Virus record (IMG/VR): IMGVR_UViG_3300047362_000042
Span: 1 to 22,997 of that record
DNA length: 22,997 bases
Source: a virus
Reading direction: 5' to 3' (one strand)
Shown here: positions 3,218 through 21,916 of the stretch, one piece after another
Numbering within the stretch: position 1 is the first letter of the stretch
Layout: the number at the start of each line of letters is the position of its first letter
The notes under the pieces: generated by a model
Told to the model about the DNA's origin: nothing
The model's database searches: none
Seen by the model: the letters and a program-made list of their open reading frames with translations, nothing else
Position numbers and translations under genes: made by a program

Positions 3218-3472
3218 TTAGTTTCCCTTGTAAATGTTTTGAATGTGTGTTTCAAATTTTTCGATCTTATCAACGCGATCCGGCCATAGGATGTATTCCT
3301 TCTCAGGACTCATCTTCAAGTTTGCTAGCAAGGGCAGTATCGCGTCATATAAAAGATCTAAGCGCGCTTGGTATTCATCGACTGAAGACTCGACAGACTC
3401 TAATCTCTGCGCAGATTCGAGTTCTGATTCGTCGACTAGGGTGAAACCAAAGTCAAAAAGTTCATTATCCAT
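3218..3472 (-). CDS. Conserved T4-like marine phage protein of unknown function
   Basis: The 84-residue protein starts MDNELFDFGFTLVDESELES, continues with a helical, acidic stretch (coiled-coil-like, about residues 20-50) and ends with MSPEKEYILWPDRVDKIEKF. This pattern (DFGFT at the start, then LLANLK..P-x-K-x-YI-x-WP-x-R) is familiar from many T4-like marine phages, usually unnamed and close to structural genes. No enzymatic motif is visible. It is the first gene after the late boxes at 3479-3486 and 3569-3576 and probably travels with the 285-aa gene as a small late operon. Confidence 0.75.
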   Translation of the reverse strand: MDNELFDFGFTLVDESELESAQRLESVESSVDEYQARLDLLYDAILPLLANLKMSPEKEYILWPDRVDKIEKFETHIQNIYKGN

Positions 3473-5024: not shown

Positions 5025-5426
5025 TTGATTACTTTAGAATTTGGAGGCCGAGTTAAGAATCGGAAAAGACACGAAGAGTTTGCAATTAATGTCATCAATG
5101 ACTTATTACCACGGTCCTTCAAAAGAGACATTAGCGTGTTTGTTCACTTCACTAAAAACATTGAAGAGATGGGTCTTTGTCATGTTGAAGAAAAAGACGT
5201 GATTGGTGTCCAGATTAACACTAATCAGAGTGCTGGTGAGATAGCCCAGACTCTTGCCCACGAACTGGTCCACGTCAAACAGTTCATTCGCAAGGAATTA
5301 AACGCCGACATGGATCGATGGAAAAGAGACCGCATCCCTGAAGATGTGATGATTCCCTATCGCAGTCAACCTTGGGAGATTGAAGCGTTCGAAAAGGAAG
5401 TTTGGTTAACAAAGGCGTATTGGTAA
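5025..5426 (+). CDS. HExxH metallopeptidase-like protein (SprT/zincin-like), TTG start
   Basis: The 133-residue product carries AHELVHVKQF (HExxH at 79-83) and, 32 residues later, QPWEIEAFEKE (115-125), whose glutamates could supply the third zinc ligand. The same two motifs in the same order occur in the protein at 9682, so the two are probably paralogues. The only plausible start is TTG at 5025: the frame is closed by the TAA of the upstream gene at 5016-5018, and GGAG at 5011-5014 lies 10 bases before the TTG. It should be a small cytoplasmic zinc peptidase; the substrate is unknown. It ends the operon that begins at 3562. Confidence 0.7.
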   Translation: MITLEFGGRVKNRKRHEEFAINVINDLLPRSFKRDISVFVHFTKNIEEMGLCHVEEKDVIGVQINTNQSAGEIAQTLAHELVHVKQFIRKELNADMDRWKRDRIPEDVMIPYRSQPWEIEAFEKEVWLTKAYW

Positions 5427-7263: not shown

Positions 7264-7532
7264 TGCCTAAGATCGTCAAACTGAACTACGACCGGAAGGT
7301 CCGTTACATATTCGACAAGGACACCGAAGAGTGTTCTCGCCTCTCTAACGAGGTCATGGACCACTATGGTCAATATTTAGAAACCCCACACGGTTGGTGG
7401 ATGGAAGATATTAAAACTTTTCATAAGACCGTCCGAGAGTGTGGATTATCAGTCAGGGAGTTCCTCACAAAGACATGGAAACCACCAAAGAAAAAGGCTC
7501 CCGTGAAGAAACGGGTGAGGAAAAAGAAATGA
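7263..7532 (+). CDS. Small protein with very basic tail, 89 aa
   Basis: The 89-residue product has a compact N-terminal part (MPKIVKLNYDRKVRYIFDKD, then a helix with HYGQYLETPHGWW) and a tail of about 20 residues that is almost entirely Lys, Arg, Pro and Val. The tail suggests nucleic-acid binding or contact with an acidic partner. The stop overlaps the ATG of the SprT-like gene (ATGA). Confidence 0.7.
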   Translation: MPKIVKLNYDRKVRYIFDKDTEECSRLSNEVMDHYGQYLETPHGWWMEDIKTFHKTVRECGLSVREFLTKTWKPPKKKAPVKKRVRKKK

Positions 7533-8134
7533 GGGCAGCATATCGAAGAGCGATAGACGCGGGTCTCACTACCTCTCAGGCCCACAAGTATTCCGACTAC
7601 TACCGTCGCAAGACGATCCTACCAAAACGTGACAGCGAGAAGACCAAGACCTACACCGCCGAGTGGAAACTCGAAAATGAACACCCCGACTTGATCGGTC
7701 CACTCAAGGACTTCAAGGACGTGGAGAAGTTTGTAAAACAAGTGACTTCGTCCAAGACGTGGGAGAAGGTGTCTCGTTACCACGGCAAGGTGCGCGTCGT
7801 CCAATCGCGCAATATGGGAGGTCGTGCCGCCTACATGGGTAAGTCGCATGGGTCGTGGATTGAGATCTCGCCTGCGTTCGACTTCAACAAGTACATTGTC
7901 CTACACGAACTTGCACACAGTGCGGGACACAACCACCACCACGTGACCTTCCGTGAGTGTCTTTTGAAGTTGGTGTCTAGGTTCCTTGGTCGTGAGACCG
8001 CCGCGATCCTGAAGGCGAACTTCAAGGAGCAGGGTCTGAGAGTGACCCCGTCGAAAGCGAAGGATCCGGAGTCGTGGTTGAGGGCTGTAAAAAATGTGCC
8101 GTGTGACTTATTACCGAAAAATAGTCACGTTTAG
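7529..8134 (+). CDS. SprT-like zinc metallopeptidase
   Basis: The start at 7529 (ATGA overlap, AGGAAAAAG just upstream) gives 201 residues; an in-frame extension to 7439 would run through the upstream gene and is not supported. The N-terminal 30 residues are a helical, basic region. The core has HGKVRVVQSRNMGGRAAYMG and the active site YIVLHELAHSAGHNHHHVTF (HExxH at 126-130, further His at 134 and 136-138), the arrangement HELAH...H...F of SprT/wss1-type proteases. It may cleave DNA-bound or host proteins early in infection. This gene has visibly higher GC than its neighbours. No zinc ribbon C-terminus is present. Last gene of its unit. Confidence 0.75.
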   Translation: MRAAYRRAIDAGLTTSQAHKYSDYYRRKTILPKRDSEKTKTYTAEWKLENEHPDLIGPLKDFKDVEKFVKQVTSSKTWEKVSRYHGKVRVVQSRNMGGRAAYMGKSHGSWIEISPAFDFNKYIVLHELAHSAGHNHHHVTFRECLLKLVSRFLGRETAAILKANFKEQGLRVTPSKAKDPESWLRAVKNVPCDLLPKNSHV

Positions 8135-9476: not shown

Positions 9477-9682
9477 TGGAATGGTATGAAATGGGAGATG
9501 CTGGTGAGCATCTCCGAGACGTGATTGATGCTTTTATCGATGGGTTTACCAACGAGAGAGAATTCTCTGCGGAACTGGATGCGATGGGACTGTCCTATGA
9601 AGAACAGAACGAGATTATTCGAAGTGAAATTCGTGTCTTGGAAACGCAAATCGCAGAGTCTGCACAAGGTACGATCCACTAA
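9476..9682 (+). CDS. Hypothetical early helical protein, 68 aa
   Basis: Start at the ATG 9476 within a TGATG overlap (a GTG at 9473 adds one residue). The product is acidic and helical: GEHLRDVIDAFIDGFTNERE, then LSYEEQNEIIRSEIRVLE. No motif. Overlaps the metallopeptidase-like gene by TAATG. Confidence 0.66.
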   Translation: MEWYEMGDAGEHLRDVIDAFIDGFTNEREFSAELDAMGLSYEEQNEIIRSEIRVLETQIAESAQGTIH

Positions 9683-10173
9683 TGAACGTCGCAGAAAATG
9701 TCATCATTGAAAACTCGCCCAGTTTTGCGCTGTCGGACTACACGTTCCGCGTTGCAGAGGCGTTAGGAATTAATCGCCTTGGTGGATACATCAAGGTCGA
9801 TTTCAAAGAAGAAGACATCACCCATTTCTCAGCTGAGGTGGATGGAACCGAAGACCGAGTCGACCTCACTGTCCGATTGGATAACGAGATTACCGAAGAT
9901 CAGGTCAAAGTGCATATTGCACATGAGATGATTCATGCTGTACAGATTCTCACAGGCAGACTTATACATATAGGTCTCACATGGTGTGAGGAGTCGCATG
10001 GTATCGTCTACAAACATATTTTTGACGACAAGGAATATATCAACGTCAAGTACGCTGATCAACCTTGGGAAATAGAGGCATACTCTTATGAAGAAGAAGT
10101 CTATAACGCGGTCGAATCCGGTAGCGAAACACTCGCCGAAATTCAATCGTCCATCCACCCACGTCGACCGTAA
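9682..10173 (+). CDS. HExxH metallopeptidase-like protein, paralogue of the 5025 gene
   Basis: The 163-residue product contains IAHEMIHAVQILTGR (HExxH at 81-85) and DQPWEIEAYSYEEEVY (126-141). The same HE-x-x-H ... QPWEIEA order and spacing class occurs in the 5025 product, with a longer insert (GLTWCEESHGIVYKHIF) between them here. A preceding strand-rich region (GYIKVDFKEE, VDLTVRLDNE) fits a zincin fold. Probably a cytoplasmic zinc peptidase or a catalytically altered relative; substrate unknown. Its last 86 bases also encode the start of another gene in a different frame. Confidence 0.72.
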   Translation: MNVAENVIIENSPSFALSDYTFRVAEALGINRLGGYIKVDFKEEDITHFSAEVDGTEDRVDLTVRLDNEITEDQVKVHIAHEMIHAVQILTGRLIHIGLTWCEESHGIVYKHIFDDKEYINVKYADQPWEIEAYSYEEEVYNAVESGSETLAEIQSSIHPRRP

Positions 10174-13013: not shown

Positions 13014-13035
13014 GGGGACTTCGGTCCCCTTTTTT
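13014..13035 (+). terminator. Intrinsic terminator with UUCG tetraloop
   Basis: GGGGAC (13014-13019), TTCG loop, GTCCCC (13024-13029), then six T. It ends the gp33-gp32 unit; the - strand gene's stop codon lies in the T run. Confidence 0.92.
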
Positions 13036-14713
13036 ATGCGCGTAGGCCTAAGGTTGGATCGTGACCATCCATCTCTGACCATTGCATCGAGACGGAGGTG
13101 TGTCCGTTTGTGGTGTTCTTGACTACACGTTGACTTGAGTCTTGTACGACGACACCGTTGACCGTCTTGGTGTGTCTACTCTCAGACACTTCTTTTCTAA
13201 CACTCTGACCACTCGTTGGTTTATTTGCGGTAGGTGTAGATTCCAATTCAGCGCCTGAATTCACTTCCGCTGCATCGAAGATGTCCGCGAAACTGAACGA
13301 TTTCTTTCCGGTCAACATGTCATAGATGTTACTGAAATTGAACATCTCCTTCGCCTTTGCGACGATCATGTCGAAGGTGTCTGTGATAGGTGAGAACATT
13401 GATGAGAAGATTTTGGAAATTCCGCCAAGCACGTCACCACTGAACAACATCTTGAGACCTTCCCAGATCCCGCCATAGAAGTTAGTCAACATCCCCTTGA
13501 TCCAGTCGACTACTCCACCGATAAATCCAGCGATACCGTCACTCACTGACTGGTACAGTTCACCAAAACTGAACGAGTTCAGTGACTCTGCGATCCCGTC
13601 GAACCCTAATTTACCGGCGATCCACGAAAACGCGCCCTTGATCATATCGAGAAGGTCTACGACAAAAAATTTGATGAGGTCGTCAATGACTCCCTTTACT
13701 AGGAATCCAATGCCGCCTAGAATGTCACCGTCTTTGAACATGTCCAGTGCAGTGGAGAAGTTGGTGAACAGAGACTTGATTGTCACACCGATTGCGAGGA
13801 TAGGTGTACTCAGGATTCTCGCAAGTGCCATCACTGGTTTGAATATGGAGGTCATACCACCTAGAGTTCTACCCAGAGAACCGAAGAACGTTTTGATCTT
13901 ACCGAATGCCTTAGTGACCGGACTGTTCTTCAACGTGTCCTTAATTGTGCTCGCACCTCTCGCGGCATCGTCAGTATAGGATCCTATAAGACCGATGGTT
14001 TTACCAAATCGAGTGAACATTGTTCCGGCACGTGACACGAAACCTTTTATGACGGTCATTGCGTCTTTCGCTTTGCGACCCAATGCGTCCATACCCATGT
14101 TGATAAAGAATCTACTGATACCGTATATGGACGCAGCAATGTTTTTCACTGCGCGACCGATAGACATGATCGCATTCCCTAGTGTAGTGAAGGGTTTCAT
14201 TAGGAATTTGATGACCCTGTTCTCACCTACGATACCACCGATCCTTCTCATTGTCAGGGCCAGTGATTTGACCGCACTACCGATCAACTTGGACAACTTC
14301 ATTATTGGTGTGAGGTAACCACCGATTGCACCTACAACGATACCCGCAGTGATCGCAAGCGCCCTGAGTTTTTTACCCAAGAAACTAGAACTATCGTCAT
14401 CATTATTATTGTTAGATGAGTCTTCGTTTCTATTGTTGTTCGAGAGTTGATCTCTGATCCCCTGCATCACCTCAAGCAGTTCGTTCTGGTACGCGGAGTT
14501 CTCACGCGCCTCTTCCAGTTCGTCTGGATTTCTGGTTCGACGCGAGATTGCGTTTTTCATTTTACGCACATCGCTGAAGATAGTCATCAAAGCGTTTTCG
14601 GTACGACCCGTACGCATGGCGACAGTATCCATAACCTTAACTATACTGTCGGTGTTCTTTTTATTATCTTCTTTTTGTTCGGTTAGTTGACCGACAACGG
14701 CTTCTAAACTCAT
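13034..14713 (-). CDS. Tape-measure-like tail protein (gp29 equivalent)
   Basis: The 559-residue protein is close in size to T4 gp29 (590) and lies at the end of the gp26 operon. It has a coiled-coil, charged N-terminus (EAVVGQLTEQKEDNKKNTDS, to about 110, ending in a Ser/Asn/Asp-rich linker). A long Gly/Ala/Phe-rich helical region follows with repeated hydrophobic patches (ALAITAGIVVGAIGGYLTPI, GDILGGIGFLVKGVIDDLIKF at about 330-350, GDVLGGISKIFSSMF at about 430-445), then a polar C-terminus. Tape measures fill the tail tube and set its length; their hydrophobic segments may enter the host membrane. The call rests on composition, length and context right after the gp26 frameshift cassette, not on a specific motif. 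Its ATG overlaps the TAATAA after the preceding frame. Confidence 0.65.
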   Translation of the reverse strand: MSLEAVVGQLTEQKEDNKKNTDSIVKVMDTVAMRTGRTENALMTIFSDVRKMKNAISRRTRNPDELEEARENSAYQNELLEVMQGIRDQLSNNNRNEDSSNNNNDDDSSSFLGKKLRALAITAGIVVGAIGGYLTPIMKLSKLIGSAVKSLALTMRRIGGIVGENRVIKFLMKPFTTLGNAIMSIGRAVKNIAASIYGISRFFINMGMDALGRKAKDAMTVIKGFVSRAGTMFTRFGKTIGLIGSYTDDAARGASTIKDTLKNSPVTKAFGKIKTFFGSLGRTLGGMTSIFKPVMALARILSTPILAIGVTIKSLFTNFSTALDMFKDGDILGGIGFLVKGVIDDLIKFFVVDLLDMIKGAFSWIAGKLGFDGIAESLNSFSFGELYQSVSDGIAGFIGGVVDWIKGMLTNFYGGIWEGLKMLFSGDVLGGISKIFSSMFSPITDTFDMIVAKAKEMFNFSNIYDMLTGKKSFSFADIFDAAEVNSGAELESTPTANKPTSGQSVRKEVSESRHTKTVNGVVVQDSSQRVVKNTTNGHTSVSMQWSEMDGHDPTLGLRA

Positions 14714-14715
14714 TA

Positions 14716-14904
14716 TTATCCTTTGTTCTTATTACGTTCGTTTTCTTCTTTGATGTGTTCAACCAACATAGCAAGATATATCTCTCTCTCCCAAGGCATC
14801 ATATTTTCAACTTCATGTAACGAGTAGTTGAAGTTCTGAAGTAACTGAAAATTTACTTGGTAGTAATTTGTCAGGTTATCATGAGAGAGATTAACTAAAA
14901 AAAA
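14716..14904 (-). CDS. 62-codon extension frame, probably read as a -1 frameshift fusion with gp26
   Basis: The frame runs from a TGA just before the T8 run to the TAA at 14718-14716, and encodes (from the slip site) FFLVNLSHDN then LTNYYQVNFQLLQNFNYSLH and ENMMPWEREIYLAMLVEHIK, ending EENERNKNKG. It has clear protein character (amphipathic helices, PWERE-I-Y) like the small gene beside gp26 in related phages, yet contains no ATG, GTG or TTG before an internal ATG pair (14802). It is in the -1 frame relative to gp26 and joins it at a slippery run. A fusion of gp26 plus about 60 residues is expected, as with lambda GT. Alternatives: transcriptional slippage in the U8 run, or an internal start giving only 28 residues. 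Confidence 0.62.
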   Translation of the reverse strand, partial: FFLVNLSHDNLTNYYQVNFQLLQNFNYSLHEVENMMPWEREIYLAMLVEHIKEENERNKNKG

Positions 14905-15602
14905 TCATCCATCCCCTTTAGGACTCTTGTGTTCACATGTCCGCAAGATTGGCACGTAAATTCAACTTTCTGCGATATCGCAGGCATAGTGTTAACGAAC
15001 TCTGCAACCTTCTCGAACTGAGCGGCGGTCATTGAGTCGATGAACTCTACAATCGCTTCGCGCGGTTCGTCTGATAGAACCACCCTCTCTTCTTCGGTAA
15101 GGACAGCGTCCATACATGTTATTAAAAGTTCTACCAGACCTTCTGTCATCGTACCCTCTTCGCTGAGGACAGGGTTCTTTAGGAACTCTTCATACGTCGG
15201 GAATCGCATCTCGACCGACACACTATCCGTTAGTTCGATAGTCTTCGCGTCAACGTCTCCTTCAAGAACGATGTTATCCAACTCAATTTTGATCTCGTTC
15301 GTGGTGTCACATTCACTACACTTGGTTTGAACGTCTGCGGTCTCACCCACTGACTTCGCACGTATCTTAGTGAACAAATAATCCACGTCGAAGGTAGTCA
15401 ATTTCGTATTGATTGGATCCTCAACACAGGCGTGGATTGTCCTAATAATAGATCGCACCATATCCTGTTTGTCTTGGGTCTCATACGCAATCAGTAACGC
15501 TTTCTGTTCCTTCACAAGGAAGGGACGAAAGGACGTTTCTTGTCCCGACGATGGTATGGTCACCGTATAACTCGGCGACTCATTCAGTTTTGGTAATGCC
15601 AT
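14895..15602 (-). CDS. 26: gp26 baseplate hub / tail-assembly protein (T4_baseplate family)
   Basis: The 235-residue protein has the family start MALPKLNESPSYTVTIPSSG, SFRPFLVKEQKALLIA (about 25-40), and a middle TTFDVDYLFTKIRAKSVGET (about 68-87), all typical of the gp26 family. It also holds two CxxC pairs: KCSECD (94-99) and CQSCGH (219-224), a probable zinc site. In T4, gp26 is needed to assemble the central baseplate hub; the family is now often compared with tape-measure chaperones. The gene stands just before the tape-measure gene, as such chaperones do. The coding end DDFF-stop is a slippery run of eight U (14904-14897), preceded by AAAGGGG about 10 bases before, which could stimulate a -1 frameshift. 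Confidence 0.85.
   Translation of the reverse strand: MALPKLNESPSYTVTIPSSGQETSFRPFLVKEQKALLIAYETQDKQDMVRSIIRTIHACVEDPINTKLTTFDVDYLFTKIRAKSVGETADVQTKCSECDTTNEIKIELDNIVLEGDVDAKTIELTDSVSVEMRFPTYEEFLKNPVLSEEGTMTEGLVELLITCMDAVLTEEERVVLSDEPREAIVEFIDSMTAAQFEKVAEFVNTMPAISQKVEFTCQSCGHVNTRVLKGMDDFF
14897..14904 (-). other. Putative -1 slippery site (U8) at the end of gp26
   Basis: On the - strand the message reads GAU UUU UUU UAG; moving back one base gives UUU UUU UUA GUU and continues in the 62-codon frame. An AAAGGGG Shine-Dalgarno-like stretch lies about 8-10 bases upstream, as in bacterial -1 sites such as dnaX. A short GTTA/TAAC pairing is possible downstream, but no strong hairpin is evident. 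Confidence 0.6.
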
Positions 15603-15617
15603 AATGTATCCTAATGA

Positions 15618-16391
15618 TTAAATAATTCCACCTAGATTGAGGTTTACATCTCCCCCAATCAGGTCCGTTAGACCGCGTTTGTCTTCCTTCACCTTCCATC
15701 TGGTGTAAGATAATTGCACGGTCAATTCAACAACGGTTCCCGTATCACTCATAAACTCAACACCGCTTATGCTAGTTGGGAACGCATCTTCTAACTCCAC
15801 TGTGTATATAGACAAACCACCAATATCGAAATTGATGTCTAGTGGACCTATGTCAAATCCTGCTCGCATCTGTGGTTTGGACAGTTGCGAGATTGTAACT
15901 GGATGCGTGATCTGACTCTGATAGGCGACAGACTCATATCCTTTCTCGCCCTCATTCACGACCTTGGACATCCAATTGTCGAAATACTTCTTTACCTCAT
16001 AATCGTTCAATACGTAGAACGTCAGTGACACGTCACCCACCGCATATCCGTTCGCGACCTTTCGCATCTCCATACCTACTTGACGGTCCAAAGACATGAT
16101 CTGTTTTTCTGGTAGTGATGCACTCTTACACAATAGGTTCAAGGTCTCTGGATCATCTCCAGACATACTTGGTAGATTGATGTTCTCTGCAACTGCCTTG
16201 ACGGTGTCTATCGCCTTGTCTAAAAACGACCCATCATCTGCTGTCGCTTTCTTCGCCGGTGACTCCTTCTTGACACCACCCGCCTTCGCGTTAATGGACT
16301 TTACCGACGGCATCATTACCGCGAACTGGTTGTTGAAAGCCATCCCGTTACGAAGACTGACCTTTGATTTAAATGTCTCTATACCTGCCAT
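15618..16391 (-). CDS. 54: Tail tube-fold baseplate protein (gp54-like tail tube initiator)
   Basis: The 257-residue protein belongs to the gp19/gp48/gp54 tail-tube fold. After an N-terminal strand (NNQFAVMMPSV) and a basic, Ala-rich insert (about 35-75), it has LLCKSASLPEKQIMSLDRQV, a stretch with GDVSLTFYVLNDYEVKKYFD, WMSKV and YQSQITHP, and the C-terminal IYTVELEDAFPTSISGVEF followed by VVELTVQLSYTRWKV. This order is that of tube subunits (PF06841). In T4, gp54 sits on gp48 and starts tube polymerisation; its place among baseplate hub genes suggests gp54 rather than the main tube protein gp19, which is shorter. Starts directly before the upstream gene's end with GCGAATAAATGGC spacing, so translation is coupled. 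Confidence 0.68.
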   Translation of the reverse strand: MAGIETFKSKVSLRNGMAFNNQFAVMMPSVKSINAKAGGVKKESPAKKATADDGSFLDKAIDTVKAVAENINLPSMSGDDPETLNLLCKSASLPEKQIMSLDRQVGMEMRKVANGYAVGDVSLTFYVLNDYEVKKYFDNWMSKVVNEGEKGYESVAYQSQITHPVTISQLSKPQMRAGFDIGPLDINFDIGGLSIYTVELEDAFPTSISGVEFMSDTGTVVELTVQLSYTRWKVKEDKRGLTDLIGGDVNLNLGGII

Positions 16392-17027: not shown

Positions 17028-17541
17028 CACGTTTTTTACGTTTCTTGAACGCGGGCATCTTTTTGAGAGGTTTCTTAGACTTTATGCGTTGCGCAGCCTT
17101 GGGCATGATACCCTTTGTGGTGAGTTCTTTCTCTGTCCAGATCTCAAAGTGGTGTCCGCGATCTTTTGCGTACTCGACCGCCGCCTTCCACTTGGATTGG
17201 TTCTTGATGTAGGTGAGACCCTCAGTCATGAGTGTCTGTCGAGACTTACCTTGTTTCTTCTCTGGTCTCTTGGTCTCTTTGGCGGGTTTGACCTCAACCA
17301 ACACCACACGACCCGACTTGTACTTGATCACAAAGTCGACGAAGTATCGGTGAGGTTTCTTGTCGGTCTCGCAGATGTAGGGTATTACCAACTCCTCAGA
17401 GACCCACTGGACCACATCTGAGTTCCTGTCACACCACATCATCACATACTTCTCCCACCCTGAACGGTAGACAATATCATCGACGTTGCCTGCGTACTTC
17501 TGCGGTTTGGTGGGTTTGTACTTTCCCTTATACGTTTTCAT
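17023..17541 (-). CDS. 4: gp4-like head completion nuclease
   Basis: The 172-residue basic protein begins MKTYKGKYKPTKPQKYAGNV, then YRSGWEKYVMMWCDRNSDVV and a restriction-enzyme-like core: WVSEELVIPYICETDKKPHR followed by YFVDFVIKYKSGRVVLVEVKP (Glu in SEE, Asp in YFVDF, and E-x-K in VEVKP, the PD-(D/E)xK arrangement). The C-terminus is very Lys-rich. This is the T4 gp4/50 head-completion family, with a TnsA-like nuclease fold; it acts on DNA-filled heads before tail joining. The start overlaps the methyltransferase end by 14 bases, and the last codons GTA TAA contribute to the next late promoter. Confidence 0.85.
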   Translation of the reverse strand: MKTYKGKYKPTKPQKYAGNVDDIVYRSGWEKYVMMWCDRNSDVVQWVSEELVIPYICETDKKPHRYFVDFVIKYKSGRVVLVEVKPAKETKRPEKKQGKSRQTLMTEGLTYIKNQSKWKAAVEYAKDRGHHFEIWTEKELTTKGIMPKAAQRIKSKKPLKKMPAFKKRKKRV

Positions 17542-18112
17542 AACGTCTCAATAGTACCATACAGTTAAGGCGGTCAGTGGAAGGGTAGTAGAACTCTCGC
17601 ACCTTGCGGTATGGGAAGTCGTCTCGATCCAGTTGGTTGTCGATGACCGCCTTGGGGTATAGGTCACCCATACATCGGACGTAGTCGTCCACCAACATCC
17701 ACTCGACACCCGACTCAGCGCATAGGTCCATGTCCTGAACCATTCCCTTGGGTGTATGGTCCCCATCAATGAAAATCATATCATAACCAGTTACGTCGTC
17801 AGGTACCAACTGGTGTGAGTCGCATAGGGTGAACTGGAATCGATCCTTAAACTGGTCCTTTATCTTCCCAGCATTGACCTCTGTGTGTGGGTAGTGTCCA
17901 ATATCTGTTGAGTGCACTCTTACACGACGATTGACGGATAGGAATGTGTACGCACTGTGACCAAAGTTGAACCCAATCTCGAAGACGGTATTTGCCTGTG
18001 TCATAGATAATATACTCGCAAACGCCAGACACGTCTTATTATCAGGCAGAACGTGACCCTCAATGGTGTCCCATCCCTCAGTCAGGAATTTAGTGTCGTC
18101 TATTAAGTTCAT
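17528..18112 (-). CDS. Class I SAM-dependent methyltransferase
   Basis: The 194-residue protein has the Rossmann methyltransferase order: FEIGFNFGHSAYTFLSVN (motif I, ExGxxxGxS, about 44-61), VHSTDIGHYPH (acidic end of strand 2, about 66-76), YDMIFIDGDHTPKGMVQDMD (motif IV with IDGDH, about 109-128) and WMLVDDYV (strand 5). This is the Methyltransf_24 kind, acting on small molecules, sugars or proteins; target unknown. It is the first gene of the - strand late operon, before gp4. The leader from the late box at 18140 has no visible Shine-Dalgarno sequence, so translation may be weak or leader-independent. Overlaps gp4 by 14 bases. Confidence 0.82.
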   Translation of the reverse strand: MNLIDDTKFLTEGWDTIEGHVLPDNKTCLAFASILSMTQANTVFEIGFNFGHSAYTFLSVNRRVRVHSTDIGHYPHTEVNAGKIKDQFKDRFQFTLCDSHQLVPDDVTGYDMIFIDGDHTPKGMVQDMDLCAESGVEWMLVDDYVRCMGDLYPKAVIDNQLDRDDFPYRKVREFYYPSTDRLNCMVLLRRYENV

Positions 18113-19833: not shown

Positions 19834-21146
19834 TGACTAAACTAACAGAGATCTCCACGCCTTTCGAATTCGCATCGGTAGAGATCGAGTCGAGTGCAAA
19901 AAAGAAGAAGAAGATCGAGATTAAGTCGCTAGTAACCGACCTTGATATCTTCGAACACATCGACAAACCATATTTGACCGCACAGATCATGTTTCGTGAT
20001 ATGAATGATTTCATGTCAGGTGACGATATCCGTGGGGGCGACATTGTGCGTATCAAACTCAAACAGACAACCGGATTCTCGCGAGTCTTTGTGCAGAAAG
20101 AGTTTCGTATTGACAAATTCATGGGATCCAGTCGTACCGACCTGAATAACAATGTCGAGGTCCACATTCTCCACTTAATCGAGAAACATTGGTACGACTC
20201 TACTGCACAAAACGTCAATAAGTCCTATTCTGGTTCTGCCACCACTATCCTACCTAAGATTGCTAAAGAATTTTTGGACGATAAAGAGGTAGAGTCTTCG
20301 GGTGAAGATATTCAGGACATGAAATTCATCGTTCCGAATATGACTCCATTAGACGCTATGTCTTGGATCAAGAATAGAGTAACCACCAAGGAAGGATATC
20401 CTTTCTATCTGTATTCCAGTGTTGTCAAGGATGAACTTCAGTTCAATGACCTTAAAACCATGATGGAAGAACCCCCTTGGAATAAGAAGAATCCATTCTC
20501 TCATATTGCGGCAGAACAGAACGATGAAGAGTCCGCGCGTGTACGATCCATCAAGGCATTCAAACATAAGGGTACTGACAATCTACTCACTCTCATAGAC
20601 AAAGGTCTGGTAGGCGCCAAACACTCATATTATGATGTCACAACCAATCAGATGACTCATGTTACCTTCGATCTACATAAGGATGTCATGACCCGTCTTA
20701 AAGATGATGGTATTCAAAAGGACAAACCTTTCTATACCGAAGATATGGGACTCGAAGACGAACCTTTCAATAAGATCATCTCACGACATACCACACAGAT
20801 CGGTGGCACTAACGCTTATGACCAACCTTCTCTGAATGAATCTCCTTCTGAAGGACAGTATAGACTCAATGTCATCACCCGCGCTATGACTCTCCTTACT
20901 CAACACAATCCTATGTCTATTGTCATCTCAGGTATCGATTTCGCTAATAAGACACATAACTCTGTTGGTAAAACAATTGATCTCGCATTTCTCAAAACAG
21001 ATGTACTCAATAATAAAGAAAACCCCTATGACCAAAAGAAATCAGGCACCTATCTCATCTATGCTGCTAAACACTCTTTTAAAGTAGATGGATATGATAT
21101 CATGCTCTCTTGCATTAAACTTACTAATGGTGGTTATACATTATGA
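19833..21146 (+). CDS. 27: Baseplate hub protein, gp27-like
   Basis: The 437-residue protein sits between gp53 and gp5 and has the hub-protein layout: N-terminal beta domain (LVTDLDIFEHIDKPYLTAQI, MFRDMND, then KQTTGFSRVFVQKEFRIDKF), a middle with LDAMSWIKNRVTTKEGYPFY (about 176-195), and a C-terminal barrel MSIVISGIDFANKTHNSVGK followed by YDQKKSGTYLIYAAKHSFKV. Those features correspond to gp27/gp44-type hub subunits, which form a trimer that joins the tube to the gp5 spike. T4 gp27 has 391 residues. A Lys-rich patch near residue 25 (SSAKKKKKIEIK) includes an A6G run. ATGA overlap with gp5. Confidence 0.8.
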   Translation: MTKLTEISTPFEFASVEIESSAKKKKKIEIKSLVTDLDIFEHIDKPYLTAQIMFRDMNDFMSGDDIRGGDIVRIKLKQTTGFSRVFVQKEFRIDKFMGSSRTDLNNNVEVHILHLIEKHWYDSTAQNVNKSYSGSATTILPKIAKEFLDDKEVESSGEDIQDMKFIVPNMTPLDAMSWIKNRVTTKEGYPFYLYSSVVKDELQFNDLKTMMEEPPWNKKNPFSHIAAEQNDEESARVRSIKAFKHKGTDNLLTLIDKGLVGAKHSYYDVTTNQMTHVTFDLHKDVMTRLKDDGIQKDKPFYTEDMGLEDEPFNKIISRHTTQIGGTNAYDQPSLNESPSEGQYRLNVITRAMTLLTQHNPMSIVISGIDFANKTHNSVGKTIDLAFLKTDVLNNKENPYDQKKSGTYLIYAAKHSFKVDGYDIMLSCIKLTNGGYTL

Positions 21147-21916
21147 TACCAAAACAATTCATTGAATACTATGGAGACCAAACACGCTGGTTCCTAGGTA
21201 CAGTTGTCAATAATGCAGATGATCCTCTCCAGATAGGACGTGTTCGAGTACGAATTTTTGGAGTACATGACGGCGTAGAGAAAGATGAAGATCTACCGTG
21301 GGCACAAATAGTGATTCCAACCATCTATGGAGTACACGAAGGTACAGGACAGTATCTGGGTATGTTAACGGGTACTAACGTATTCGGGATGTTTCTGGAT
21401 GGACCTAGTTCGCAACTCCCGCTCGTGGTAGGTACGATTCCAAAGAAAGGCGATGAAAATCAACGTGCTACAGAGAACTATCCGTATAATAAGGTCTACC
21501 AAACAGAGAACGGACACTTCAAAGAGTATGATGATACCAGTGAGAATCTCCGTATACGAGAACAACATGCTTCTGGTACATACACAGAGATGCAACATGA
21601 TGGCAGTCGTGAGACCGTGGTGGAGAAAGACGAGTATATACGCGTTAAGGGTGATTTAAAGATCGTAGGTGATCTCGATGCAACTATAGAGATATCGGGT
21701 AATTGTAAGGTCGTGATCGGTGGTGACGCGACGATAGAGGTTGCAGGCAGTACTCTCCTAGACTGTCCATCCACGACCGTCACAGGGGATCTGAGAGTCG
21801 ATGGTGAGGTCTCTGTGGGAGGCGATGTGAACACTGACGCGGGAATCTCTCTGAATAAACACAAGCATAAGATCCTCAGTGGTTCCTCTAAGGGGACTTC
21901 GGACAAACCTGTATAA
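21143..21916 (+). CDS. 5: gp5-like baseplate spike, no lysozyme domain
   Basis: The 257-residue protein starts with the OB domain typical of gp5/VgrG: FLGTVVNNADDPLQIGRVRV and RIFGVHD (about 17-42), followed by LPWAQIVIPT and PSSQLPLVVGTIP. A short YPYNKVYQTENGHFKEYDDT segment links to the triple beta-helix needle (about 160-235, with repeated GDLKIVGDLDATIEI, GGDATIEVAGSTLL, GDLRVDGEVSVGGD), and the end is LNKHKHKILSGSSKGTSDKP. T4 gp5 has 575 residues including a lysozyme domain between OB and needle; here it is missing, as in cyanophages. It forms the trimeric membrane-puncturing tip. Its final GTA TAA is part of the late box at 21912. Confidence 0.88.
   Translation: MIPKQFIEYYGDQTRWFLGTVVNNADDPLQIGRVRVRIFGVHDGVEKDEDLPWAQIVIPTIYGVHEGTGQYLGMLTGTNVFGMFLDGPSSQLPLVVGTIPKKGDENQRATENYPYNKVYQTENGHFKEYDDTSENLRIREQHASGTYTEMQHDGSRETVVEKDEYIRVKGDLKIVGDLDATIEISGNCKVVIGGDATIEVAGSTLLDCPSTTVTGDLRVDGEVSVGGDVNTDAGISLNKHKHKILSGSSKGTSDKPV

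Follow-up and report, generated by a model that had tools for sequence, protein, structure and literature searches.

How is the start-less reading frame that follows gp26 at this locus translated, if it is translated at all? In the stretch of DNA analysed here, which comes from a marine T4-like virus (22,997 nt, hereafter the window), the −1 frame across the 3′ end of gp26 continues almost up to the next gene. The sequence-only reading of this DNA had proposed that a programmed −1 frameshift joins the two frames. Here, we compared the locus with its relatives, and the comparison indicates that the −1 frameshift is very probably real, conserved and functional.

The gp26 gene and its putative slip junction

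The features of the junction are as follows.

15602..14895, minus strand: gp26, 235 aa (PF12322, E=1e-55; phrog_150, E=3e-59)
14898..14904, minus strand: slippery heptamer U UUU UUU, the first seven U of a U8 run, with the 0-frame UAG directly after it
14716..14898, minus strand: −1 extension, 60 codons after the slip plus the stop; gp51 C-terminal domain with a startless first part

The 3′ end of gp26 reads GAU GAU UUU UUU UAG in the window, in agreement with the ending GAU UUU UUU UAG given earlier, and the U8 run (14904..14897) is the sole A/T homopolymer of at least 8 in the 23-kb window. A UGA in the −1 frame lies directly 5′ of the U8 run, after which this frame stays open for 62 codons (FFLVNLSHDNLTNYYQVNFQLLQNFNYSLHEVENMMPWEREIYLAMLVEHIKEENERNKNKG). 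Therefore, the open stretch can be entered only via the U run. Its first possible start is an ATG at codon 35, followed by another at codon 36, so that the length of 62 codons and the lack of a start in the first 34 were both read correctly from the sequence. The −1 frame closes at a UAA (14718..14716), and the ATG of the next gene at 14713 follows 2 bases further on, not 3 as previously counted. Similarly, the predicted gp26 fusion, computed from the window, has 295 aa and a mass of 33.8 kDa instead of the 30 kDa first suggested.

The start-less frame belongs to the gp51 family

The 62-aa extension hits phrog_634, the T4 gp51 family ("baseplate hub assembly catalyst"), with E=9.5e-24 over profile positions 56–115 of 121, and a further match (E=8.8e-9) falls on the C-terminal end of phrog_150, the gp26 profile. 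T4 gp51 (249 aa) aligns to the window fusion over its gp26 domain as well as its extension, while T4 gp26 (208 aa) covers the gp26 part only, its end lying no more than a few residues from the slip point. By this homology to T4 gp26 and gp51, which the alignments establish, the startless frame encodes the C-terminal domain of T4 gp51, and thus a peptide of a known family. Both features of the gp26/gp51 family, the PF12322 domain and the gp51 C-terminal domain, are present in the window, and a second, full-length gp51 was not found in the window record, which is a 23-kb fragment. Sullivan et al. remarked that cyanophage gp51 is without its first ~200 residues (PMC3037559). The protein would appear too short there because it represents the frameshift tail of gp26.

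Conservation of the junction among relatives

Using gp26, 80 viral loci were fetched, and 72 unique ones, including the window and three phage records, were examined; one fetched locus ended before the junction and was left out of the count. A 0-frame heptamer (U UUU UUU, U UUU UUC or U UUU UUA), which fits the X XXY YYZ pattern of tandem slippage, is found at the end of gp26 in all 72, and the same conserved peptide follows it in the −1 frame across the relatives' loci. This frame is closed at most 3 nt upstream of the U run in 34 of the 72. Over extension codons 1–33 (524 pairs), the −1 frame has a pN/pS of 0.20, against values between 1.4 and 1.7 for the two remaining frames; by this comparison, the −1 frame is coding. 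The first Phe codon at the slip is UUU in 72/72, compared with 72% of the Phe codons elsewhere in gp26. The first start codons of the −1 frame are scattered over codons 0 to 33, and among the first starts of the 72 unique sequences none is common to the relatives.

Chance does not account for the observation, because 72 unique relatives share the frame, the peptide and the slip site, and because purifying selection acts on the −1 frame. The conserved heptamer, the low pN/pS and the missing shared start thus agree with the frameshift proposed from the sequence. An alignment of relatives had been suggested as its check, and both the slip heptamer and the lack of a start proved to be conserved. 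Two outcomes had been named as speaking against the proposal, namely homologues with a conserved ATG of their own and the lack of a slip-prone run at the same place; the alignment yielded neither.

A junction of this type is also seen in C48C1, P-SSM2, ACG-2014b, pelagiphage Mosig, Vibrio R11Z, Pseudomonas Milchi, Aeromonas AS-yj, Stenotrophomonas Moby and Delftia PhiW-14. A joined gene is annotated in none of these nine phage records, which carry either a separate short CDS or nothing. In ACG-2014b, no gp51 is annotated though the frame is present, and the annotated gp51 of C48C1 (34 aa) omits the conserved first half. Extension codon 3 of P-SSM2 is an ATG; therefore, an independent start is possible in some relatives.

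In Klebsiella phage Menlow (Ackermannviridae), the gp26 relative likewise has a −1 frame, the tail of which (LMPWHLDM) weakly resembles gp51; the junction lies near position 3304. A clear U6 heptamer was not found at the Menlow junction.

Candidate stimulatory elements on both sides of the slip site

Elements that may stimulate slippage flank the heptamer on both sides.

14919..14913, minus strand: AAAGGGG, a 5′ element resembling a Shine-Dalgarno sequence, 8 nt upstream of the heptamer (evidence: anti-SD pairing)
14890..14882, minus strand: 5′ arm of the stem, UCUCUCUCA, 7 nt after the heptamer (evidence: covariation and synonymous-recoding controls)
14793..14785, minus strand: 3′ arm of the stem, UGGGAGAGA, in the PWERE codons (evidence: covariation and synonymous-recoding controls)

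The mean pairing energy of the 24 nt before the slip with the 16S anti-SD is −6.7 kcal/mol across sequences, compared with −5.2 kcal/mol in synonymous recodings and −2.0 kcal/mol at random places in gp26, and the native sequence beats its own synonymous recodings in 86% of cases. The K/E/Q/R-Gly amino-acid pattern explains part of this signal, so the SD-like element is supported, though not cleanly separated from protein constraint. The sequence-only reading had already noted a dnaX-like purine stretch before the slip, which fits the pairing being stronger than under synonymous recoding; its AAAGGGG is indeed present, at a measured distance of 8 nt rather than about 10.

On the 3′ side, within the clade of the window, a local hairpin in the 60 nt downstream did little better than shuffled sequences, and a long-range stem was therefore looked for. 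Extension codons 4–6 are unusually fixed in their nucleotides (of 70 Leu at position 4, 58 are CUC and 11 are CUU, in contrast to the mixed codons of other Leu columns), and they are complementary to the UGG GAG AGR of the PWER motif. The resulting stem encloses about 90 nt of the extension. In the window, an alternative 9-bp register (14891..14883 with 14788..14780) exists, and the stem may close a branched fold with inner hairpins.

Comparison of 98 unique sequences demonstrates that this stem covaries. The outer pair is C-G in 37, U-A in 41, C-A in 19 and U-G in 0 sequences (Fisher p=5e-13, ignoring shared ancestry), and it is the strongest covarying pair among all pairs in the 132-nt region; the C-A mismatch in 19/98 sequences counts against the stem. 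The inner pair is C-G in 82, U-A in 8, U-G in 4 and C-A in 2 (Fisher p=1.5e-7, ignoring shared ancestry). Parsimony on the gp26 tree gives about eight C-G/U-A double switches for the outer pair and six for the inner one. Since all four covarying positions are third codon positions and the main changes are synonymous, coevolution of amino acids is an unlikely cause.

Folding controls point in the same direction. A helix of at least 8 bp is formed in 92% of sequences versus 15% of synonymous recodings, and the folding energy over 126 nt is −29.3 versus −19.7 kcal/mol for the recodings. The stem is part of the minimum-energy fold in 57 of 60 sequences, 96.3% of alignment cells are paired in its register compared with 45–78% in slid registers, and 34 cells are doubly changed versus 16 after shuffling (0 of 500 shuffles reach 34). 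RNAalifold recovered the long-range stem and nothing else, and an Rfam search over 14600–15050 returned one match only, at chance level. Downstream structures of −1 frameshifts are recognised by a spacing of 5–9 nt and by covariation; here, the spacer is 7 nt and the stem covaries.

In P-SSM2-type cyanophages, the long-range stem is replaced by a strong local hairpin (GUAUGGCUCA...UGAGUCAUAC) located 6–7 nt after U UUU UUC. Of 59 unique loci, 56 have this hairpin, and a GGAGGG-like stretch lies upstream. We consider it somewhat more probable than the contrary that, in marine T4-like phages of the window's clade, the chaperone frameshift is driven by a long-range stem enclosing about 90 nt, that such a class of stimulator is undescribed for phage tail chaperones, and that it is evolutionarily exchangeable with the P-SSM2-type local hairpin, T4 and its close relatives using two separate genes instead. 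No description of the long-range stem was found in the literature covered, which included few subscription papers. Judged by that literature, the RNA stimulator and its exchange between clades are probably the new part of the present findings.

Alternative explanations

The fusion could also originate during transcription if RNA polymerase slipped in T8, whereby part of the mRNAs would gain an extra U and normal translation would give the fusion. This alternative was named in the sequence-only reading; it draws on the T8 of the window being the only run of 8 in 23 kb and on the presence of U8 in many relatives as well. However, 10 of the 72 relatives have only U6, then C or A, and yet keep the heptamer in the right frame. 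The same was seen in almost all of another 82 loci, which two scans had retrieved with the proteins of P-SSM2 and Vibrio R11Z; U UUU UUC was counted in about 80 of these loci, nearly all of the cyanophage type. The long conserved homopolymer expected of a transcriptional slippage cassette is thus absent, and of the conserved U7/U8 that had been proposed for checking, the heptamer is kept while the homopolymer is not. Such a requirement, confined to the heptamer, speaks for tandem slippage of tRNAs, and since several members have only U6, ribosomal slippage is favoured. The stem 7 nt after the heptamer and the SD-like element also fit ribosomal frameshifting, leaving polymerase slippage quite improbable. 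Against frameshifting on these heptamers stands a report that, in E. coli, both U UUU UUU and U UUU UUA slip much less readily than A AAA AAG (PMC5009743). The stem, in turn, may be real and serve another role, for example in mRNA stability or in controlling the tape-measure gene, which would be compatible with the frameshift. Its putative link to the slip is drawn from sequence comparison: the stem begins at the usual spacing of a stimulator, and a different hairpin lies at about the same spacing in the P-SSM2-type loci; another role is therefore unlikely.

A separate small protein, gp51′, made from its own start by stop-restart or from an internal ATG, is what most records annotate. Short separate gp51 proteins of this kind are annotated in several phages, for instance in C48C1 and P-SSM2, and the window offers the ATG ATG at codons 35–36. 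This is highly improbable, however, as conservation begins at the first codon after the slip, with the low pN/pS extending over codons 1–33, and the relatives have no start codon in common; the ACG-2014b and C48C1 annotations, one without any gp51 and the other with half of the conserved peptide missing, likewise disagree with it. Alternatively, the frame might be a decayed, untranslated remnant of an in-frame gp51-like fusion, given that T4 has a full-length in-frame gp51. The probability of this is close to nil: in diverse phages, the frame is under strong purifying selection, its length is kept and the slip site is conserved, and the substitution pattern already contradicts decay.

Neighbouring genes and the putative chaperone role

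The genes on either side of the two frames are as follows.

15618..16391, minus strand: upstream gene of the tail-tube family (tube or tube-initiator), 257 aa (phrog_45 tail tube, E=1.2e-32)
13034..14713, minus strand: downstream gene, probable tape-measure protein, 559 aa (phrog_1535 tape measure, E=4.6e-4)

Family members of the downstream protein match tape-measure PHROGs with E-values down to 7.8e-9, and the candidate itself has no detectable similarity to T4 gp29; the tape-measure assignment thus rests on position and on family-level PHROG matches. As in G/GT-type chaperones, two overlapping ORFs lie between the tail-tube and the probable tape-measure genes, and the second, which lacks a conserved start, is joined via a slippery site that is conserved close to where the first one ends. 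T4 gp26 and gp51 have been listed as hub assembly chaperones (PMC3004832), and those of Konradin are annotated as tape-measure assembly chaperones. Together, synteny and the homology to T4 gp26/gp51 support a G/GT-like role. On this basis, gp26 would be the short tail-assembly-chaperone product (TAC-N), equivalent to lambda G, and the fusion would be GT, as had been suggested from the sequence. The AlphaFold model of gp26 has a pLDDT of 86, and the HK97 tail assembly chaperone (2ob9) is its highest-probability PDB match among the matches listed, but a weak one (probability 0.69, E 1.2, TM 0.2 over the query). A sequence-profile search of gp26 against PDB chains returned nothing credible.

Several other genes of the window were recorded. 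Four small HExxH proteins are encoded on the plus strand within 9 kb (1168–1533, 5025–5426, 7439–8134 and 9682–10173), with the motifs HELMH, HELVH, HELAH and HEMIH; two of the four share their PHROG matches, to families of unknown function (phrog_10499, phrog_16532), and also weakly match SprT/DUF6782 metallopeptidase models. A gene with a methyltransferase domain (17528–18112, minus strand, 194 aa; PF13578, E=7e-10) sits inside the structural cluster, between a head-closure gene (phrog_218) and a divergent tail-tube-cap gene. The gene of the baseplate hub/tail-lysozyme family at 21143–21916 (plus strand, 257 aa) matches the ends of much longer profiles, and it therefore seems to be without a lysozyme domain.

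Proposed mechanism

Taken together, a programmed −1 frameshift, stimulated from both sides, very likely provides a chaperone pair consisting of gp26 and the 295-aa gp26-gp51′. Most ribosomes on gp26 would stop at the UAG and release the short chaperone, while a fraction would slip back by one base on U UUU UUU and continue in the −1 frame to give the fusion. Slippage would most likely be stimulated as in dnaX, by the SD-like stretch 8 nt upstream and the long-range stem 7 nt downstream. Many short and few long subunits would then coat the tape-measure protein and bring in tail-tube subunits, like lambda G/GT. What we infer from the comparisons above comprises the slippage itself and its rate, the part of the two elements in stimulating it, and the function as a chaperone.

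For annotators, this implies that two records could be joined in hundreds of marine phage genomes. It also suggests that, within one protein family, frameshifting and separate genes are two ways of producing the short and the long chaperone, and it offers a compact, testable system for long-range RNA pairing that sets a frameshift rate in bacteria.

Comparison with known systems

The E/E′ pair of P2 consists of a short ORF and a startless −1 ORF directly before the tape-measure gene. Lambda G/GT is arranged likewise (PMC5009743), and the window shares this gene layout, from which the likeness is drawn. It differs from both in that a poly-U heptamer stands at the very stop codon, the protein belongs to the gp26 family and has two Cys pairs, and there is a long-range stem that covaries. 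The frameshifting of G-T has been described as conserved in long-tailed phages "except T4" (Atkins et al. 2016, PMC5009743). The T4-like gp26/gp51 system is built from the same protein families as the window (PF12322/phrog_150 and phrog_634). In T4 and Acinetobacter phage Konradin, the two forms come from separate, divergently transcribed genes (26 and 51 in T4), unlike in the window, where one gene and a −1 shift would yield both.

Judging from later papers, the frameshift in the T4-like group itself is probably at least partly described already. The title of the 2022 work by Vladimirov, Gautam and Davidson refers to a mechanism other than frameshifting. That study (Virology 2022) identified tail assembly chaperone genes of T4-like phages, as related in PMC10885494 and PMC12846349. 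According to the PRFect paper, some T4-like phages have a short and a long gene instead (PMC10885494), while the Adele paper credits Vladimirov et al. with poly-T slippery sites in T4-like TAC genes (PMC12846349), so that the sequence-only reading, which knew of no described case in T4-like phages, was probably not the earliest for this group. In the Vandenendeviridae/Andersonviridae chaperone of phage Adele, a conserved T-rich (GTTTTT) −1 slip site ends the short gene, as in the window, and the extension is misannotated or unannotated, as in the relatives of the window (PMC12846349). Adele belongs to a different phage group, and such a stem does not come up in the parts of that paper covered here.

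E. coli dnaX and the window share an SD-like element upstream, a slippery homopolymer heptamer and an RNA stem downstream. In contrast to dnaX, the heptamer of the window consists of U rather than A, its stem encloses about 90 nt instead of forming a compact hairpin, and the gene is a viral structural one. The P-SSM2-type cassette of GGAGGG, U UUU UUC and hairpin is compact, like dnaX.
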